Assembly: GCF_029664245.1 (NCBI RefSeq)
Contig: NZ_JANAIE010000009.1
Span: 1-64,000, forward strand
Source of the DNA: Profundicola chukchiensis
GTDB lineage: Bacteria; Bacteroidota; Bacteroidia; Flavobacteriales; Weeksellaceae
Length of the DNA: 64,000 bases
Direction: 5' to 3'
Shown here: positions 50,834-59,385 of the stretch, one piece after another
Layout of the letters: each line of letters starts with the position of its first letter
Position numbering within the stretch: position 1 is the stretch's first letter
Translations under genes and position numbers: made by a program
Notes under the pieces: generated by a model
Told to the model about the DNA's origin: nothing
The model's database searches: none
The model's input: only the letters and a program-made list of their open reading frames with translations

Positions 50834-53800
50834 TTATAAAACATTTTTGTTGATTTCCTCTACCACATCTGGGTTTAATAAAGTAGAAGTATCACCCATA
50901 TTCTCGGTATCTCGACTCGCGATTTTACGAAGAATTCTACGCATGATTTTTCCACTTCTAGTTTTTGGCAAACTATTCACAAACTGAATCTTGTCTAATT
51001 TCGCGATAGGACCAATTTTAGCTGTAATCAACTGATTGATCTCTTTGCGTAAATTATCTTGGTCACGTTTGCTTCCTTCATCTTTTAAAGTCACATAACC
51101 ATACAATGCACTTCCTTTAATCTCATGTGGGAAGCTAACAATCGCCGATTCAGCAATGGCTTGATGTTCGTTGATCGCATCTTCAATAGGAGCGGTTCCG
51201 AGGTTATGCCCAGAAACAATTACTACATCATCTACACGTCCTGTGATTCGATAATAACCAACTTCATCTCTCAATGCACCATCACCCGTAAAATACAAGC
51301 CTGGGAAAGTAGAGAAATAGGTCTCTTTATAACGTTCATGATTGTTATATACAGTTCTTGCCATTCCTGGCCATGGATATGCGATACAAAGTTTTCCGTC
51401 TACTTGATTTCCTTTAATCTCAACACCATTGGCTTCCATTAAAACCGGTTGAATTCCCGGTATTGGTAAAGTAGCATAAGTTGGTTTGGTTGGCGTTACA
51501 TATGGAATAGGGGAAATCATGATTCCACCTGTTTCTGTCTGCCACCAAGTATCCACAATTGGGCATTTTTTCTTCCCAATATGGTCATTATACCAGTGCC
51601 AAGCTTCCTCGTTAATAGGTTCCCCCACAGATCCAAGGATTTTTAAACTTGATAAGTCATGCTCATCTACAAAACTTAAATCTTGTTTTGCTAATGCACG
51701 AATAGCGGTTGGTGCTGTGTAAAATTGATTCACTTTATGCTTGTCTATAACATCCCAAAATCTTCCATAATCAGGATAAGAAGGAACTCCTTCAAACATA
51801 ACTGTGGTCGCTCCATTGGCAAGTGGACCGTAAACGATATAGCTATGTCCTGTAATCCAGCCAATATCGGCGGTACACCAATAGACATCATCGTTTTTAT
51901 ATTGGAATACATTTTTAAAGGTAAATGCCGTAAATACCATGTATCCAGCCGTGGTGTGAACCATTCCTTTCGGTGTTCCAGTGGAGCCAGAAGTGTATAG
52001 AATAAATAAAGGATCCTCTGCATCCATTTCTTCAGCCTCGCATTCAGAAGAAGCATTCATTAATTCTTCGTGAAGCCATTTGTCGCGGCCTTCTACCCAT
52101 TCTACTTTGTCGTGAATTCGCTTGGCTACCAGACAAGTTTCTAAATTAGGCGTATCTAATAAAGCTTCATCAACGATTTTCTTTAAATCTATCGTTTTAG
52201 ACCCACGATAAGAACCATCCGCTGTCACGATTAATTTACAATCTGCATCGTTGATTCTAGATGAAAGCGCTTTTGAAGAAAATCCTGCAAAAACCACAGA
52301 ATGAATAGCACCAATTCTTGCGCAAGCCAACATTGTATAGGTTAAAGCTGGAATCATAGGTAAATAAATACAAACTTTATCACCCTTTTTGATGCCATTA
52401 TTTTTAAGCACATTTGCCATGCGATTCACATGCTGCGCTAATTCATTATAGGAAATATGTTGAGCTTTTTCCTTTGGATCATTAGGTTCAAAAATAATAG
52501 CAGTTTTCTCTCCTCGTGTTCTAAGGTGTCGGTCGATACAGTTTTCGGTAATGTTTAGTTTAGCATTTTTAAACCACTCAACTTTACTCTCTTTTTTATC
52601 CCATTCTAAAACCTTGTCCCAAGTTTTTCTCCAATGAAAATTATTGGTGGCAATGGTGCTCCAAAAGTCTTCTGGATCTTGTTTAGAAATTCTATAAACA
52701 TCAATATATTTCTCTAAGGAATCAATGTTGTAATAGCTATCAGCTAAGACTTTTAATGAACTAGTAATATCTTTTTCTGTCTTTGAAAAAGCTCCAATTT
52801 TCTCGCTCCTGAACTGCTCAATCAATTCGTCTAAAACAAAAGGATCTTCTATCGTTGATGGAACCGTGTAATCTTTCCCATCGATCATAGCGCGCATGGT
52901 CTTGCGTAGAATCTTGCCTGATCTAGTTTTTGGTAAGCGCTTTACCACCGAAATGGTTTTCAAAACTGCAACAGGTCCAACTTGCTGACGAACCATTTGC
53001 ACAAGTTCAGTTTGTAATTTAAAATGTTCGTAGTCTTCTTGTCCGATTTTAAGAACAATTAAAGCATGCGGAACTTGTCCCCTTAAATTATCTTCAACAC
53101 CAATCACAGCGCATTCAGCAACTGCAGGGTGATTCGCCACAACTTCTTCCATGGTTGAGGTGGAAAGTCGATGTCCTGCCACGTTGATGACATCATCCAC
53201 ACGCCCTGTAATAAATACATAACCATCTTCGTCTATGTATCCGCCATCGCCAGAGAAGTAATATCCAGGGAAGCGTTGTAAATATCCAGCTTTGTATCTT
53301 TCGTTATTGCGCCAAAGCGTCGGCATAAATCCTGGTGGCATCGGAAGTTTGATAGCAACATAGCCTTCTTCATTGGTTTCGGCAGCATAACCTTCTTCAG
53401 TTAAAATTTGAATTTGATAACCTGGGACAGGTTTTCCAGAGGAGCCAATTTTAATTTCAAATGGATCAACTCCCATTAAATTGGCTACCATCGGCCAACC
53501 GGATTCTGTTTGCCACCAATGGTCGATTACAGGAATTTGTAATTTTTCTTTTGTCCAAGTCAGTGTGGCTTCGTCGCATCGCTCACCTGCAAGGAATAAG
53601 TATTTTAATGATGAAATGTCATGATTTTTAATTAAATCTCCATTCGCATCTTCTCTTTTAATTGCACGAATCGCTGTAGGCGCAGTAAACATTCCGTTGA
53701 CTTTGTGTTCCTCAATCACGCGCCAGAATGCAGAAGCATCTGGAGTTTTAACTGGTTTTCCTTCGAATAGAATAGTAGTACAACGATTAATCATGGGACC

Positions 53801-54679
53801 ATAACAAATGAAGGAGTGTCCAACTACCCAGCCCACATCAGATGCGGCCCAGAATGTATCGCCTTCGTTCATTCCATAAATGTATTTCATCGAAAACTTA
53901 AGCGCTGTGGCATATCCACCTGTATCACGTAAAACTCCTTTTGGTTTTCCTGTAGTTCCAGAGGTGTATAAAAAATAAGAAGGATGATAAGATGGAACCG
54001 GAACGCAATCAGCGGGTGTAACATCTTTAATTAATTCTTCATAATCGATATCGTAATCTTTTTCAGGTTTATCTGCTCCAAGTTCACGATTATACACAAT
54101 TACTTTTTCAGGCTTATGAGCAGATTGTTCAATCGCCTCATCCACCATAGGTTTGTATGGAATAATTCTGTCGACTTCAATTCCAGAAGTAGCTGTGATT
54201 AAAACTTTAGGTTCTGCATCTTCAATTCTAACTGCTAATTCATGGGGCGCAAACCCACCAAATACAACCGAGTGAATTGCGCCAATTCTTGTACATGCCA
54301 ACATGCTAAAAACGGCATGAGGAATCATAGGCATATAAATCACAACGGTATCTCCTTTCTCAACACCGAGTTTCTTAAGTCCACCTGCAATTTTCTCCAC
54401 ATTTTCCTTCATTTCGTTGTAGGTGTATGGAATATTGTGATGGCGAACGGCAGAATCATAAATCATAGCAACCTCATCACCATGACCATCTTCTATGTGG
54501 CGATCTATAGCTAAATAACAAAGGTTGGTCTCACCATCCGGAAACCAATGGTAAATACCTTCTTCGTCTTGTTCAACTGCGGTTTTAGGTTCTTTAAACC
54601 ATTTTAATTCACTGGCTTTGTCTAACCAGAATTCTTCAGGGTTTTCAATGCTGTCGTTGTAAAAGTCTTGATATTTCAT
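50834..54679 (-). CDS. Fused short-chain acyl-CoA synthetase (PrpE/ACSS3-like + Acs-like)
   Basis: One open frame of 1281 residues holding two complete AMP-forming synthetases. The first (about 1-620) has YTSGTTGKPKG (238-248), HWWQTESGW and catalytic Lys589 in PKTRSGK; it resembles PrpE/ACSS3 propionyl-CoA synthetases. A linker (about 620-650) leads to the second (about 650-1281), which has LNITENCIDRHL, YTSGSTGTPKG (895-905), DTWWQTETGG and Lys1244 in PKTRSGK, as in acetyl-CoA synthetase. The second half has no methionine at its natural start, so a single polypeptide is expected. The two halves are alike but far from identical. Confidence 0.92.
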   Translation of the reverse strand: MKYQDFYNDSIENPEEFWLDKASELKWFKEPKTAVEQDEEGIYHWFPDGETNLCYLAIDRHIEDGHGDEVAMIYDSAVRHHNIPYTYNEMKENVEKIAGGLKKLGVEKGDTVVIYMPMIPHAVFSMLACTRIGAIHSVVFGGFAPHELAVRIEDAEPKVLITATSGIEVDRIIPYKPMVDEAIEQSAHKPEKVIVYNRELGADKPEKDYDIDYEELIKDVTPADCVPVPSYHPSYFLYTSGTTGKPKGVLRDTGGYATALKFSMKYIYGMNEGDTFWAASDVGWVVGHSFICYGPMINRCTTILFEGKPVKTPDASAFWRVIEEHKVNGMFTAPTAIRAIKREDANGDLIKNHDISSLKYLFLAGERCDEATLTWTKEKLQIPVIDHWWQTESGWPMVANLMGVDPFEIKIGSSGKPVPGYQIQILTEEGYAAETNEEGYVAIKLPMPPGFMPTLWRNNERYKAGYLQRFPGYYFSGDGGYIDEDGYVFITGRVDDVINVAGHRLSTSTMEEVVANHPAVAECAVIGVEDNLRGQVPHALIVLKIGQEDYEHFKLQTELVQMVRQQVGPVAVLKTISVVKRLPKTRSGKILRKTMRAMIDGKDYTVPSTIEDPFVLDELIEQFRSEKIGAFSKTEKDITSSLKVLADSYYNIDSLEKYIDVYRISKQDPEDFWSTIATNNFHWRKTWDKVLEWDKKESKVEWFKNAKLNITENCIDRHLRTRGEKTAIIFEPNDPKEKAQHISYNELAQHVNRMANVLKNNGIKKGDKVCIYLPMIPALTYTMLACARIGAIHSVVFAGFSSKALSSRINDADCKLIVTADGSYRGSKTIDLKKIVDEALLDTPNLETCLVAKRIHDKVEWVEGRDKWLHEELMNASSECEAEEMDAEDPLFILYTSGSTGTPKGMVHTTAGYMVFTAFTFKNVFQYKNDDVYWCTADIGWITGHSYIVYGPLANGATTVMFEGVPSYPDYGRFWDVIDKHKVNQFYTAPTAIRALAKQDLSFVDEHDLSSLKILGSVGEPINEEAWHWYNDHIGKKKCPIVDTWWQTETGGIMISPIPYVTPTKPTYATLPIPGIQPVLMEANGVEIKGNQVDGKLCIAYPWPGMARTVYNNHERYKETYFSTFPGLYFTGDGALRDEVGYYRITGRVDDVVIVSGHNLGTAPIEDAINEHQAIAESAIVSFPHEIKGSALYGYVTLKDEGSKRDQDNLRKEINQLITAKIGPIAKLDKIQFVNSLPKTRSGKIMRRILRKIASRDTENMGDTSTLLNPDVVEEINKNVL

Positions 54680-55080: not shown

Positions 55081-55902
55081 TTATTTTTTAATAAACTGCT
55101 CTGTTACAGTCTTAAAATCCATATGAACTTTAGCAAAATAAGCTCCAGCAGGTAATTGCGAGACCTTAATTTGAGTTGAATTTGAAGTTAAAAGTAGTTT
55201 ACCCGCAGTATTATAAATTTCAACTTTATTTACGCTATCATTACTTTTAATGTTCAAAATATCTTTAACTGGATTAGGGTAAATTTTAACTGATAATGGC
55301 GCATTAATATCTTTAACCCCCAAGTTAGAATTATGAGAAATATTAAAATCATCTAATAATAACACAAATTGTTCATCTGAGTTGTAGTGTCTCATAGCAA
55401 TTTTAATAGTGCTTCCTTGAAAGCTTGATAAATCTAAATCAATTTCCTGAGCAGTTGAAATGCCTTCAAAATTCATTTCAAAAAATGGAAGCATATCTAC
55501 ATTAAAGCTCTCTGAACTTTCAAAAACATAAAGTGCGAAATTATGATTGTTCATAAAATCAACATTGGTACCTAGTAAGAAATTTAAAGAAATATTACCT
55601 GAATCTGGTAAATCAATTTCGGGAGTTATAATAACATTATCAGGATATAAAGGCTGTTCATTTCCTGGTTCTAAACTATAGCCAAAAGATCCTAGCATTA
55701 GAGACATATCAGGGCCCCAACCTTGTTCTTCAGCTTGATCACTACTGAAAACTAACTCCCAATTGAATCCGTCTCCATCTAAATCACCTACGGTCCATCC
55801 TGGTAAGGCATCTCCTTCAAAGTCTTCGCTAAATATAATTTCTTCTTGGGCTAAGGCATAGAGTGAAACTAAAGCAAATAAAACTGTAAAAATATTCTTC
55901 AT
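55081..55902 (-). CDS. Choice-of-anchor J-like secreted protein with T9SS type A sorting tail
   Basis: A 273-residue exported protein. Signal peptide 1-18 (ends ALAQ). Residues about 22-190 look like a choice-of-anchor J/cleaved-adhesin jelly roll: FSEDFEG, GWTVGDLDGDGFNWE with a calcium-type DLDGDG loop, ITPEIDLPDSGNISLNF. The sorting module follows (LSVKIYPNPVKDILNI ... GAYFAKVHMDFKTVTEQFIKK). It probably sits on the cell surface. It lies between two copies of a ~98-bp repeat. Confidence 0.87.
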   Translation of the reverse strand: MKNIFTVLFALVSLYALAQEEIIFSEDFEGDALPGWTVGDLDGDGFNWELVFSSDQAEEQGWGPDMSLMLGSFGYSLEPGNEQPLYPDNVIITPEIDLPDSGNISLNFLLGTNVDFMNNHNFALYVFESSESFNVDMLPFFEMNFEGISTAQEIDLDLSSFQGSTIKIAMRHYNSDEQFVLLLDDFNISHNSNLGVKDINAPLSVKIYPNPVKDILNIKSNDSVNKVEIYNTAGKLLLTSNSTQIKVSQLPAGAYFAKVHMDFKTVTEQFIKK

Positions 55903-56069: not shown

Positions 56070-56168
56070 CCAACGGACTGCTTATTAAAAATCTATAAAT
56101 AATCATTTTTGAAGAGATAGAACTCGGAGAAAATAAAAATCGCTTGCCTTAAAAAAAGACAAGCGATT
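56070..56168. repeat. Direct repeat copy B
   Basis: The second copy of the ~98-bp repeat (first at 54871-54968), same orientation. It too ends in a terminator hairpin, here serving the SoxB-like gene. The spacing between copies is about 1.2 kb and holds exactly one gene. Confidence 0.8.
56138..56168 (-). terminator. Terminator of the SoxB-like operon (in repeat B)
   Basis: AATCGCTTG pairs CAAGCGATT; on the minus strand the stem runs into TTTATTTTC, 30 bases after the stop codon. Confidence 0.83.
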
Positions 56169-56197: not shown

Positions 56198-57820
56198 TTA
56201 TCTAAACTCATAATCAGTTCCTGGAACTTGGGAATATGCATTTGGTCCTAGGTCTACAGCTTGAGCGCGACCATCTAAAACAGGGCTAACTTCACCTTTT
56301 TCTGCTAGATATTGCTCTACTGCATCATGTAAGGTGTAGTCCATAATTTCTACATTCTTTGCATCTTTCATGCGACAAAGTGTTGAAATAGGTTCGCCCG
56401 TACGATTACAAGAAGCCATTCTATAAGTCTTATTTAAATCTAAAGGTTCACCTTGAATTTTAATTTCAATGACACGATCACCATAATCTTTAGAGCTGTC
56501 AAATTTTAAGGTTAAACCAGAAAAACGAACCAACCAGCCACCAAAACGATCTGCTGGGTTTTTGGCGAATACATTATTGATTTCTTTCTCCAACCAATCT
56601 TTGACTTGCTGACCAGTTACTTCACCAATTTTCATGTGTTCGTCTACGGGTAGCATTCTCCACAAATCTTCTTTGGTAATTTCTTTTCTACCTGTGTTAG
56701 GATCTGGAACAATAGGAACTCCAAAACGGAATCCATTAGAGGTCGCGAAATCTGCTCCTGACTTCCATAATAAAGCATCGGTAATCATATTATCCATTGG
56801 ATTTTCAACCACTAAATATCTATGGATAGGGTTGGTAGTATAGCCTAAAACTCTTTGTAGTTCTTTAGAATAAGGCGCTTTTGCTTCATCTACTAATTGC
56901 TGAACCTCAGGATGTGCTGGAAACTTCTTAGGATTTACTTCGATTAATTCATAATCATACCCCGTCATTTTTCCGTTTTTAACTTTCAAATCTAGTCTTC
57001 CTACAAAAGAACCGAACGCTCCTGGTTCTACTACTTTGGCGTATTTACCTTGTATAGGTTTTCTGATTCTTTCGTGCGTATCATTTCCTAAAATGAAATC
57101 TACTCCTTCAATCGCTGGATTATCAGCTAAAAGTAATTGCTTGGAGATTCCAATATGGGAAACCAAAAATAAAACTTCAACTTCTTGTTCCTCTTTTAAT
57201 TCCTTGATTAAATCCTTTAAATTACTCTCAATTTTAGAGAATTTTAAGCCTTCGCTAAATCCAGGATTTTGACGAACCGGAACTTCAGGGTCATTGTAAG
57301 AAATAAAGCCCATTTTTAATCCCTTTTTCTCGGTTATCCAATAAGGAGGGAAAATTCTCTCATCATTTTCTTCGTGGAACATGTTAGCTACGATTACATT
57401 GGTATTATAACCTTCCATTACGTCCATCATATGTTTTTTACCATAGATTACTTCCCAGTTTCCAGGGATTAATAAATCATAATTCATGGCACGAATCAAT
57501 GAAGGAAATATTTGTCCTTGAGACAACATGCTTTCGCCGCTTCCTTGAATTAAATCACCACCATCTAAGAAAATGGTTCCATCTGGATTATTTTCTCTAA
57601 CTTTTTCTACCAAAGTTTTGATGTGCGCCAATCCACCAGCTTCGCGGTACTCAATCTCTCCATTCTTAAGGAAAAGCTCTGTATGAGGATTGAGATAAGC
57701 GTGAATATCCGCGGTCTGTAGAATACTTACAATTTCTTCTTTTTGATTCATTTTGGGGTCATTTTTCTTAAAAGCAGTCAAGGTGATTATGCTTAAAAGT
57801 ACTAAGAATATTTTGTTCAT
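56198..57820 (-). CDS. SoxB-like metallophosphoesterase/5'-nucleotidase family protein
   Basis: A 540-residue exported enzyme of the 5'-nucleotidase superfamily. Metal-site motifs: Asp38-x-His40 (ADIHAYL), Asp89 (LDGGDLIQGSG), Asn121-Trp-Glu (PGNWEVIYGK), SHIGIS and GNDTHERI. The Trp in GNWE, in place of the His of classical nucleotidases (GNHE), and the whole central part resemble SoxB, the thiosulfohydrolase of the Sox pathway. The C-terminal nucleotidase domain (about 340-540) is complete. It is last in a four-gene operon with DoxX and DsrE-like genes. No soxXA or soxYZ is in the window, so a true Sox role is unproven. Confidence 0.85.
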   Translation of the reverse strand: MNKIFLVLLSIITLTAFKKNDPKMNQKEEIVSILQTADIHAYLNPHTELFLKNGEIEYREAGGLAHIKTLVEKVRENNPDGTIFLDGGDLIQGSGESMLSQGQIFPSLIRAMNYDLLIPGNWEVIYGKKHMMDVMEGYNTNVIVANMFHEENDERIFPPYWITEKKGLKMGFISYNDPEVPVRQNPGFSEGLKFSKIESNLKDLIKELKEEQEVEVLFLVSHIGISKQLLLADNPAIEGVDFILGNDTHERIRKPIQGKYAKVVEPGAFGSFVGRLDLKVKNGKMTGYDYELIEVNPKKFPAHPEVQQLVDEAKAPYSKELQRVLGYTTNPIHRYLVVENPMDNMITDALLWKSGADFATSNGFRFGVPIVPDPNTGRKEITKEDLWRMLPVDEHMKIGEVTGQQVKDWLEKEINNVFAKNPADRFGGWLVRFSGLTLKFDSSKDYGDRVIEIKIQGEPLDLNKTYRMASCNRTGEPISTLCRMKDAKNVEIMDYTLHDAVEQYLAEKGEVSPVLDGRAQAVDLGPNAYSQVPGTDYEFR

Positions 57821-57830
57821 TTAGATTTAT

Positions 57831-58274
57831 TTAAAGAGTGATAGTTTTATAACCATTTTCTTGAAGACCAAAGATATAAGTGAAGCCGTTTGGAGTTGTG
57901 TTTATGTAAGGGTGATATTGCGACTTTTTGACACCTAAATGGTTCATTGCAAATTCACAAACTACGATGCGTATATCAAGTTTTTGGCTTTTAAGAATGC
58001 TAGGTTCTAAAGATTTATCTTCAGCCAAATCTTTTACGACAGGTCCTATTAAAATTATTTGAAAATCTAAATTGGGATGTTGAGATTTTAACTCTTCTCC
58101 TGTCATAACAGCCGCTTGTAGATGTCTTGCATTGCTGACTAGTAAGGCATATTTGCCATCGGCTTTAATAGAGTTTTCTACTTCGTTTAAACTTAAGTTT
58201 TGTGCTGAAAGATTCGTTGTGTTTAAAAATGATCCTATCATTAAAAATAGGATGACTAAAATGTGATTTTTCAT
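57831..58274 (-). CDS. Exported DsrE-like protein
   Basis: A 147-residue protein with a signal peptide (1-24, ends LSAQ) and a DsrE/DsrF-like domain: KYALLVSNARHLQAAVMTGEELKS, LDFQIILIGPVVKDLAED and, near the usual sulfur-carrying cysteine, DIRIVVCEFAMNHLG. DsrE relatives handle persulfides in sulfur metabolism; this one is outside the cytoplasm. It begins 3 bases after DoxX and ends 10 bases before the SoxB-like gene. Confidence 0.83.
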   Translation of the reverse strand: MKNHILVILFLMIGSFLNTTNLSAQNLSLNEVENSIKADGKYALLVSNARHLQAAVMTGEELKSQHPNLDFQIILIGPVVKDLAEDKSLEPSILKSQKLDIRIVVCEFAMNHLGVKKSQYHPYINTTPNGFTYIFGLQENGYKTITL

Positions 58275-58277
58275 TAT

Positions 58278-58697
58278 TTAAAATTTTATTGTTTTGTTAT
58301 AAAGATTATATGCCTTTGGATTGTTAAGAATAAAAAACAATAAGCCTCCAAAGAGAGCTATGTTTTTCCAAAACGGGCCATGAATTAGACCATTTCCCAT
58401 TTGAATTGTAATGCTGATTGGAATGAGAACTATAAATAAAATTAGCGCAGACCAACGCGTTAAAATGCCTAATAAGAACATAATTCCAGCTATGAGTAAA
58501 ACATAACCTGTTAGAATTCCAAGTATGAAAGGGTCGCCAAAAAAGTAGGCAAACTCACTATAAGCTGCATTATCTATGCGTCCTGCAATTTTGTCTGGAT
58601 GTGTAAGATGTGTGATTCCCGCAGAGATGAAAATTCCGCTTAGGGCAATTCGGAGTAAAAGAACAGAAAGTCCTGATACTTTGATGTCATTATTCAT
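58278..58697 (-). CDS. DoxX family membrane protein
   Basis: A 139-residue protein with four membrane helices of the DoxX family. RIALSGIFISAGITHLTHPDKIAG is the family start. Related DoxD/DoxA proteins form an archaeal thiosulfate:quinone oxidoreductase, and other DoxX proteins act in redox membrane complexes, so with the sulfur-type neighbours a quinone-linked step is possible. Confidence 0.88.
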   Translation of the reverse strand: MNNDIKVSGLSVLLLRIALSGIFISAGITHLTHPDKIAGRIDNAAYSEFAYFFGDPFILGILTGYVLLIAGIMFLLGILTRWSALILFIVLIPISITIQMGNGLIHGPFWKNIALFGGLLFFILNNPKAYNLYNKTIKF

Positions 58698-58767
58698 TGA
58701 ATGTTTTATTTAATTTTGATTATTAACCAGGCTAAACGTCGAGTTGACAGAATAGAGTGTTTTTAAA

Positions 58768-59124
58768 TCAAATTAAATAAAGCTGGAGTCGAATATATGT
58801 GGGGATTTTCTCCTTATGCTGTGTGAATTCATCCCCATGAGCTTTGTCTAAAGATAGAGGAGTCTCAGGAATGAAAGCTGTTTTGTCTTCAGTAAAGGCT
58901 GGAATGAACTTTTGAATTTCAACCTGCTTCTGAAGCTCTATGGAAGTTAAGTTGGCCGTGCAATTTGTGCTACTAATTGTTTTAGCATTGGTCTGCTGGC
59001 TATTCTGAAAAATTTCTTGCGCAAATTGATGTTTTAAATCACGCTTTAGGGTACATGGAACAAAGAAAAGTATCGTTAATACAACGATAAAGTAATTTCT
59101 ATATGTAGACCTAAATTGAAACAT
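58768..59124 (-). CDS. Small membrane protein of unknown function, first in the DoxX operon
   Basis: A 118-residue protein with one N-terminal membrane segment (about 12-24, FIVVLTILFFVPC) and a polar remainder with a second cysteine. No domain is recognised. The start is ATG 59124, since the TAnnTTTG box at 59150-59143 rules out the TTG at 59145. It lies 70 bases before doxX and probably leads its transcript. Confidence 0.65.
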   Translation of the reverse strand: MFQFRSTYRNYFIVVLTILFFVPCTLKRDLKHQFAQEIFQNSQQTNAKTISSTNCTANLTSIELQKQVEIQKFIPAFTEDKTAFIPETPLSLDKAHGDEFTQHKEKIPTYIRLQLYLI

Positions 59125-59142: not shown

Positions 59143-59150
59143 CAAACATA
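59143..59150 (-). promoter_or_regulatory. Promoter -7 box of the DoxX/DsrE/SoxB-like operon
   Basis: TATGTTTG on the minus strand, 18 bases before the ATG at 59124. No clear -33 box. Confidence 0.4.
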
Positions 59151-59385
59151 TTAGTTTCTTAAATGATAATTAGTAACATGAGTTACATTGTTGCTAATGA
59201 TAGAATATAAAATATAAATTGTTCTATTCATGATGTTCTCTCCAAGATTGGTTGTTTGTGTATGCGTTTAGATTAGGGTTAAATGTGGATGCATTTAAAC
59301 TTTAATCGTTTTAAGCCAGGATTGAAATGCCTAAAAATAAGTTTAATTTAAAATTGAAATTTTGGAGAAAGAATTGAGATTAAGA

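Follow-up and report, generated by a model that had tools for sequence, protein, structure and literature searches.

SoxB without the SoxYZ carrier has been published for Erythrobacter and for sediment metagenome-assembled genomes (MAGs) (PMC7608252, PMC12345210; these and the other reports below are cited from excerpts). Erythrobacter flavus lacks the Sox complex, and its SoxB is required after TsdA for the conversion of tetrathionate to zero-valent sulfur and sulfate. The soxB gene lies in a thiosulfate-induced cluster with genes for TsdA and a metallo-β-lactamase-rhodanese (MBL-rhodanese), and the required SoxB is annotated as a bifunctional metallophosphatase/5'-nucleotidase (PMC7608252). 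Thiosulfate is turned into tetrathionate by TsdA and DoxD, and conversion of the tetrathionate is attributed to SoxB (PMC12345210); trithionate is hydrolysed by SoxB as a small analogue (PMC5336275). DsrE3A of Metallosphaera forms a Cys-S-thiosulfonate from tetrathionate and, in the excerpted account, does not react with thiosulfate itself (PMC4175335). Homologs of tsdA and soxB in Bacteroidetes have already been mentioned (PMC7608252). Here we describe an operon on a 64,000-nucleotide stretch of Profundicola chukchiensis DNA (contig NZ_JANAIE010000009.1, positions 1 to 64,000; hereafter the window). Its four minus-strand genes run from an ATG at 59124 to 56198 and encode a small protein, a DoxX-family membrane protein, a DsrE-like protein and a SoxB-like protein of 540 residues. 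The intergenic gaps of 70, 3 and 10 bases reported in an initial annotation of the sequence were confirmed by recomputation. We put the probability at roughly 0.6 that this operon specifies a SoxYZ-free cell-envelope unit for oxidising thiosulfate or polythionates.

The operon resembles, and departs from, each of these systems. It shares with the TsdA-SoxB-Sdo pathway of E. flavus 21-3 a SoxB-type enzyme encoded in a genome that lacks the Sox complex and clustered with an MBL-rhodanese (sulfur dioxygenase), but DoxX stands in the place of TsdA and a DsrE protein is a steady member (PMC7608252, in excerpt). The SoxB thiosulfohydrolase (TIGR04486; Thermus structures 2wdc and 4uwq) and the 540-residue protein have in common the fold, part of the metal site, a Trp in place of the nucleotidase His, R334 and R365, and they occupy neighbouring clades; by contrast, in the clade of the window protein, which we call group A, Asn121 and Asp247 replace His residues of SoxB, two further Cys are invariant, and no SoxY or SoxZ could be found in the genome. 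The DsrE/TusA carriers of Metallosphaera cuprina also belong to the DsrE family and have a reactive Cys, but are paired with TusA and an Hdr-like complex, whereas the DsrE-like protein here has a signal-peptide-like start and a SoxB-like partner (PMC4175335, in excerpt). As in the DoxDA thiosulfate:quinone oxidoreductase (TQO), a small DoxX/DoxD-type membrane protein stands beside a thiosulfate-type enzyme; however, the window DoxX scores 15 bits with the DoxD/TQO model (PF04173), below the cut-off of 22.7.

The best NCBIfam model for the 540-residue protein was SoxB (TIGR04486) at 280 bits, above all nucleotidase models and below the TIGR04486 cut-off of 550, and the best PDB sequence match was Thermus SoxB (2wdc; E = 1.4e-28). 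The only Pfam domain over its cut-off was the 5'-nucleotidase C-terminal domain (5_nucleotid_C; 80.9 bits). Five other group A proteins scored 242-295 bits with TIGR04486, compared to 847.5 for a Chlorobiaceae-type control SoxB. A careful tree with 49 rows united three sets in one clade with support of 98/96, namely true SoxB (7 rows), group A (17 rows, including the window protein) and group B (17 rows, 13 labelled B and 4 labelled X); three nucleotidases and five UshA-like rows fell outside it. Group A was itself a clade (100/100) and was sister to group B (99/97). A quick tree of 82 rows, six of them nucleotidases, agreed in the main with the careful tree. For these trees, 100 group A loci were thinned to 55 under 82% identity, and then to 41 plus the window (quick tree) and 16 plus the window (careful tree). 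The quick tree omitted L056, L059 and six duplicate or truncated rows; the careful tree omitted eight more, including a Natrinema protein, two other long nucleotidase rows and one SoxB row (L186). As judged from sequence, the protein is therefore SoxB-like and not SoxB, being below the TIGR04486 cut-off and outside the SoxB clade. The SoxB-like character claimed in the initial annotation was thus upheld by a tree that keeps the protein apart from the nucleotidases, although the public records that we looked at name group A proteins "bifunctional metallophosphatase/5'-nucleotidase".

Also in favour of this placement, every row of group A (46), group B (8) and SoxB (4) in the alignment had D86, W122, R334 and R365, which the 3 nucleotidase rows lacked. 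Residue 121 is Asn in group A, in one of the eight B rows and in the three nucleotidases, and His in the other seven B rows and all four SoxB rows; residue 247 is Asp in group A and His in all B, SoxB and nucleotidase rows. Both belong to a set of probable metal ligands that we assign by alignment (D38, H40, D89, N121, H222, D247 and H249) and take to have that role in the window protein. L062, whose contig has the same length as that of L096, was left out of the counts on 101 group A loci and of those on 85 loci, on genomes and on the operator below. Over the 101 loci, N121, W122, E123, H222, H249, R334 and R365 were invariant, D247 was found in 100, and position 432, an Arg in the window protein, was Arg in 92 and Lys in 9. 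The GNWE motif noted initially was exact. It keeps the Trp of the SoxB [GS]HWE motif and has Asn for its His, and the catalytic His of the nucleotidase/UshA GNHE motif is Trp in 101 of 101 loci. Moreover, C471 and C482 were present at all 101 loci, spaced as CX10CR in 97 and CX12CR in 4, whereas no B, SoxB or nucleotidase row has a Cys in either column. Absence of the GGDG loop was dropped as a marker against nucleotidases; the loop was missing from 101 of 101 group A proteins, and also from 3 of 6 nucleotidases and from all X, B and SoxB rows.

We searched for relatives of the 540-residue protein at several depths. Four of 197 genomes of the same family held a close relative (the genome of the window included), the other three at 73-75% identity, and the same-genus genomes with any match (G018 and G042) held no close relative. 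Across the phylum, 19 of 395 genomes, again including its own, encoded a relative that was 42% or more identical. When named genomes were scanned, at least 549 stretches encoding relatives (E up to 1e-3) were obtained, and the best 80 of these were taken as loci. By name, 79 of the best 80 are Bacteroidota; the exception (L109), a MAG called Algicola (Pseudomonadota by name), sits among Muricauda in the tree. For 85 loci in which the gene has 4 kb or more of flank on either side, we counted neighbours within 6 kb. A DsrE-like gene was near the SoxB-like gene in 69 of the 85, 62 of these on the same strand within 1.5 kb; DoxX was near in 54 and a SoxA/TsdA-type cytochrome in 23. The window order (small protein, DoxX, DsrE, SoxB-like) is repeated in L003-L005 and L061. 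Elsewhere the order varies by lineage and the set is kept, as in the SoxB-like-DoxX-DsrE arrangement of Muricauda and Brumimicrobium, so that the set, as asked of it by the initial annotation, stays together across Bacteroidota.

The window genome (2.62 Mb, 99.96% complete) had no match to the SoxY and SoxZ models. Likewise, neither SoxY nor SoxZ was found in any of the 42 group A genomes, and all three Chlorobiaceae-type controls were positive. The 42 genomes, 20 of which have no completeness figure, comprise all 22 genomes with a group A gene from the family and phylum scans and 20 named genomes hand-picked from the 80 for spread. The 20 were picked after the gene content of the loci was known and before the genome-wide search for cytochromes described below. 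A SoxYZ carrier in the same genome was thus not found for group A.

The counts of DoxX and cytochrome suggested an alternation between the two. By hidden Markov model (HMM), the 85 loci had both genes in 4 cases and neither in 12. An earlier cluster count (DoxX at 48, cytochrome at 21 and both at 1 of 102 loci) is superseded by the HMM count, which used HMMs built from those clusters and found more of both. Two locus cytochromes scanned with Pfam both matched SoxA-TsdA_cyt-c. This SoxA/TsdA-type cytochrome (PF21342) had 0 matches in the window genome, which accordingly has no TsdA-type cytochrome of the E. flavus kind by this model, and was present in 19 of the 42 group A genomes. Among genomes whose locus includes DoxX, 3 of 25 had a cytochrome anywhere in the genome, compared to 16 of 17 among those whose locus lacks it (Fisher 9e-8, the rows being related). 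In G271, G388, G305 and Robertkochia (L132) the cytochrome lies away from the SoxB-like gene. It is likely, although unproven, that DoxX and the cytochrome replace each other as the thiosulfate-oxidising partner. In a 48-member alignment of DoxX, R16, H30, R40, Q99, K111, N112 and N125 were conserved and no Cys was, which makes DoxX itself an improbable sulfur carrier. Small Cys-bearing proteins encoded at or close to the start of the unit, apparently exported as judged by eye, fell into four clusters (27, 24, 11 and 6 of 112 loci). The 118-residue protein of the window belongs to the 24-locus cluster and matched no Pfam or NCBIfam family over its cut-off. It had been described initially as a small membrane protein; it is small, and is better described, by eye, as having one N-terminal hydrophobic stretch.

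The DsrE-like protein scored just below the PF02635 cut-off of 22.7 bits. Its structure model had a mean predicted local distance difference test (pLDDT) score of 92.5, with template modelling (TM) scores of 0.87-0.88 over the target for the three best PDB matches and named DsrE/F-family chains next. The presence of DsrE/F-type chains among the best fold matches, together with a conserved Cys, places the protein in the DsrE/F family. This residue, Cys106 (codon 57959-57957), is the sole invariant column among 46 DsrE-like sequences, down to 15% identity. SoxY carries its Cys on a flexible, swinging arm. By contrast, Cys106 terminates a strand that the model predicts confidently, and the suggestion in the initial annotation that the DsrE-like protein stands in for the SoxYZ carrier is tentative. 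Given the position of Cys106 in the model, the protein may be no more than an acceptor of leftover sulfane sulfur.

A shared operator ties the operon to other sulfur genes. The exact dyad GTAAC-N4-GTTAC occurs once in the window, compared to 0.05 expected in shuffled sequence, and this copy lies before the operon. The 101 group A loci held 101 copies, compared to at most 8 for any of 59 other letter arrangements and a median of 1 over all 60 arms of the same five letters. Spacing was strictly 4 bases, with at most 1 copy at any other spacing from 0 to 8, and 97 of the 101 copies were outside picked open reading frames (ORFs), though 85% of the sequence is coding. The genes nearest to the copies included the one for the small protein of the unit (38, as 26 and 12 in two clusters) and those for TauE (17), MBL-rhodanese (14), YeeE (11) and porin (5), as well as DsrE, rhodanese and peroxiredoxin genes. 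The operator was somewhere in the locus in 41 of 60 DoxX loci compared to 3 of 23 cytochrome loci (one locus being in both); none of the 16 loci that belong to group B, to SoxB or to plasmids had it. The operator is therefore mostly a trait of DoxX-type lineages.

Of the six operator sites in the window genome, four precede the SoxB-like operon, a gene for the sulfite exporter TauE, an MBL-rhodanese gene and a pair of YeeE transporter genes; YeeE pairs carry the name thiosulfate transporter in public annotation. The other two precede ccoG and an outer-membrane barrel gene. The copy before ccoG, a cbb3 oxidase accessory gene (L204:2788-2801; C43:217787), might link sulfur oxidation to respiration, or might be there by chance. 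The genome has two MBL-rhodanese genes, at C43:32568 (the one with the operator before it, 83% identical to a copy in the island of L061 described below) and C11:15610, so by domains the sulfur dioxygenase/rhodanese enzyme of the E. flavus pathway is represented, presumably with dioxygenase activity. A Crp/Fnr-type regulator gene (L206:1905-2537; C11) directly precedes the second MBL-rhodanese gene and a rhodanese gene, and relatives of this regulator (34-54% identity) are near group A genes in 11 loci, making it the natural candidate to bind the dyad. Our literature searches, mostly at the level of listings, turned up no account of the operator and none in which group A is a sulfur enzyme accompanied by DsrE and DoxX. 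As far as we searched, then, a separate Bacteroidota clade with a Cys pair and altered metal-site residues, its DsrE and DoxX partners, and the operator are new.

Family placement, the failure to find SoxY and SoxZ, the conservation of the gene set and the shared operator, each computed here as was the alternation of DoxX and cytochrome in raw counts, support the initial proposal of an envelope sulfur unit distinct from Sox. We infer the reactions, the export of the proteins and the order of steps as follows. DoxX in the inner membrane would oxidise thiosulfate and reduce quinone, so that either tetrathionate or a thiosulfonate bound to protein is formed, a role that the SoxA/TsdA-type cytochrome would hold in sister lineages. 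The exported SoxB-like enzyme would hydrolyse the S-SO3 end to sulfate, and the DsrE protein, likewise exported, would accept the leftover sulfane sulfur on Cys106. From there, thioredoxin-type proteins and YeeE transporters would pass the sulfur inward, where the MBL-rhodanese (of the persulfide-dioxygenase type) would make sulfite and TauE would export it. The order DoxX, SoxB-like, DsrE, MBL-rhodanese and TauE is the simplest reading in view of the published data on TsdA/DoxD, SoxB, E. flavus and DsrE3A. Both free tetrathionate and a DsrE-bound thiosulfonate would be compatible as substrate of the SoxB-like enzyme.

Several observations weigh against this pathway. We know of no enzyme activity for any member of group A. 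The structure model of the 540-residue protein is confident (pLDDT 92.9), and its fold matches SoxB (2wdc, Z 39.8) and a nucleotidase (3ive, Z 39.5) nearly equally; therefore the fold alone decides nothing. The nucleotidase branches were few and long in both trees, and a nucleotidase-annotated protein from a Natrinema haloarchaeal plasmid (L187:717-2510) fell on the A+B side of the quick tree, on a long branch and with unsure placement. DsrE was missing from 16 of the 85 loci, and DsrE, DoxX and cytochrome were all missing from 6. DoxX is a broad family, and quinone chemistry is ascribed to it from DoxD, a weak match (15 bits). Three genomes hold both DoxX and the cytochrome and one holds neither, although in the latter (L076) the gene is flanked by a partial match to the cytochrome (E = 4e-14) that the Pfam model missed. 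Relatedness-aware tests of the swap were non-significant, both for genomes (4 independent pairs; a mean of 2.7 opposite and 0 same) and for loci (9 pairs; 2.4 opposite and 0.1 same), because the independent pairs were too few; the strong raw counts were consequently dropped as statistical proof of exclusion and kept as a pattern. Among the nearest genes of 24 of the 101 operator copies is one of no named class, and in the window genome the operator count was 6 compared to 5 for a control pattern. Finally, two further SoxB-like genes of E. flavus could be deleted without effect on sulfur formation, according to the excerpted report (PMC7608252).

The DsrE protein could take a more central part than in the pathway above. 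DoxX or the cytochrome would join thiosulfate to DsrE Cys106, the SoxB-like enzyme would hydrolyse the resulting DsrE-Cys-S-S-SO3, and the persulfide would be passed on. Cys106 is the only invariant column of 46, DsrE is the commonest of the counted neighbours, and the C471/C482 pair could aid docking or take-over of sulfur; the Cys-S-thiosulfonate formed from tetrathionate by Metallosphaera DsrE3A provides a precedent, although the excerpt describes that protein as unreactive with thiosulfate itself (PMC4175335). We regard this protein-bound route as tentative, in that DsrE is not near 16 of the 85 SoxB-like genes and Cys106, at a confidently predicted strand end, is on no swinging arm. Equally doubtful is a second version, in which the exported DsrE protein would carry thiosulfate on Cys106 in the stead of SoxYZ, DoxX would load it via quinone instead of cytochrome c, and the SoxB-like enzyme with its C471/C482 pair would release sulfate, all within a Bacteroidota sulfur regulon marked by GTAAC-N4-GTTAC.

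Somewhat less probable still is that the unit serves detoxification and no energy pathway, clearing persulfides, polysulfides or thiosulfonates that arise from sulfide; DsrE and DoxX would keep envelope thiols in order and the SoxB-like enzyme would trim sulfonate ends. MBL-rhodanese, rhodanese and TauE genes fit sulfide detoxification and share the operator here, but the YeeE pairs and the SoxA/TsdA-type cytochrome of sister loci point to thiosulfate itself. An exported 5'-nucleotidase or other phosphohydrolase with incidental sulfur neighbours, which the 5_nucleotid_C match, the tied fold scores, Asn121 and the public annotation would suit, was rejected as very improbable on W122 in place of the GNHE His (101 of 101), the tree position outside the nucleotidases, and a neighbourhood and operator that are sulfur-related across many lineages, with the caveat that the fold scores tie.

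Related genes were also seen outside group A. The Natrinema plasmid protein adjoins a rhodanese gene. A second SoxB-like group (about 475 residues, with no signal peptide at the start by eye) occurs in L083-L091 and in plasmid loci L179-L182, on plasmids of Bacillota and Alphaproteobacteria, and in several loci lies beside DsrE, TlpA, MBL-rhodanese or c-type cytochrome genes; a conjugative plasmid of Bradyrhizobium SK17 has a gene of this group plus a true soxB. Within group A, a sulfur island in L061 (L061:5461-12926; G461), consisting of the unit, TlpA, thioredoxin, rhodaneses and MBL-rhodanese, is 91% identical in DNA over 7.5 kb to L080 (G038). Such identity between genomes of the same class and different orders appears to be a sign of recent transfer.

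The features of the operon are collected in Table 1. TAnnTTTG, which we take to be the Bacteroidota -7 promoter consensus, occurs 42 times on the minus strand of the window and is weak evidence alone. The terminator-like hairpin is a consensus match, with 3 such sites in the window compared to 1.9 ± 1.3 in shuffles. The product of the downstream gene at 55081-55902 has a cleaved-adhesin domain and is of the type IX sorted kind; in L003-L005 a TlpA-type gene follows the unit in its place. A 1281-residue ORF at 50834-54679 apparently consists, by eye from its translation, of two tandem acyl-CoA-synthetase-like (AMP-forming) halves.

Table 1. Features of the SoxB-like operon of P. chukchiensis and its flanks (window positions)
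Feature	Positions	Strand	Evidence or remark
Small protein, 118 aa	58768..59124	-	conserved Cys in a PC motif; single hydrophobic stretch at the N terminus (by eye)
DoxX-family membrane protein, 139 aa	58278..58697	-	PF07681, 46.9 bits (cut-off 23.6); 48-member alignment
DsrE-fold protein, 147 aa	57831..58274	-	PF02635, 21.3 bits; structure model; signal-peptide-like start (by eye)
SoxB-like metallohydrolase (group A), 540 aa	56198..57820	-	TIGR04486, 280 bits; signal-peptide-like start (by eye)
Operator dyad GTAAC-N4-GTTAC, GTAACTCATGTTAC	59173..59186		48 nt before the operon ATG
Candidate Bacteroidota -7 promoter element TAnnTTTG	59143..59150	-	read from sequence
Terminator-like hairpin, 13 pairs and T tail	56138..56168	-	29 nt after the last stop codon

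The alternation with the cytochrome gives DoxX, to our knowledge a widespread family without a settled function, a testable role, and the operator provides a direct means to list the sulfur regulon in each genome. Should group A turn out to oxidise thiosulfate, a common sulfur oxidiser is being overlooked by surveys based on counts of sox genes or of canonical SoxB.

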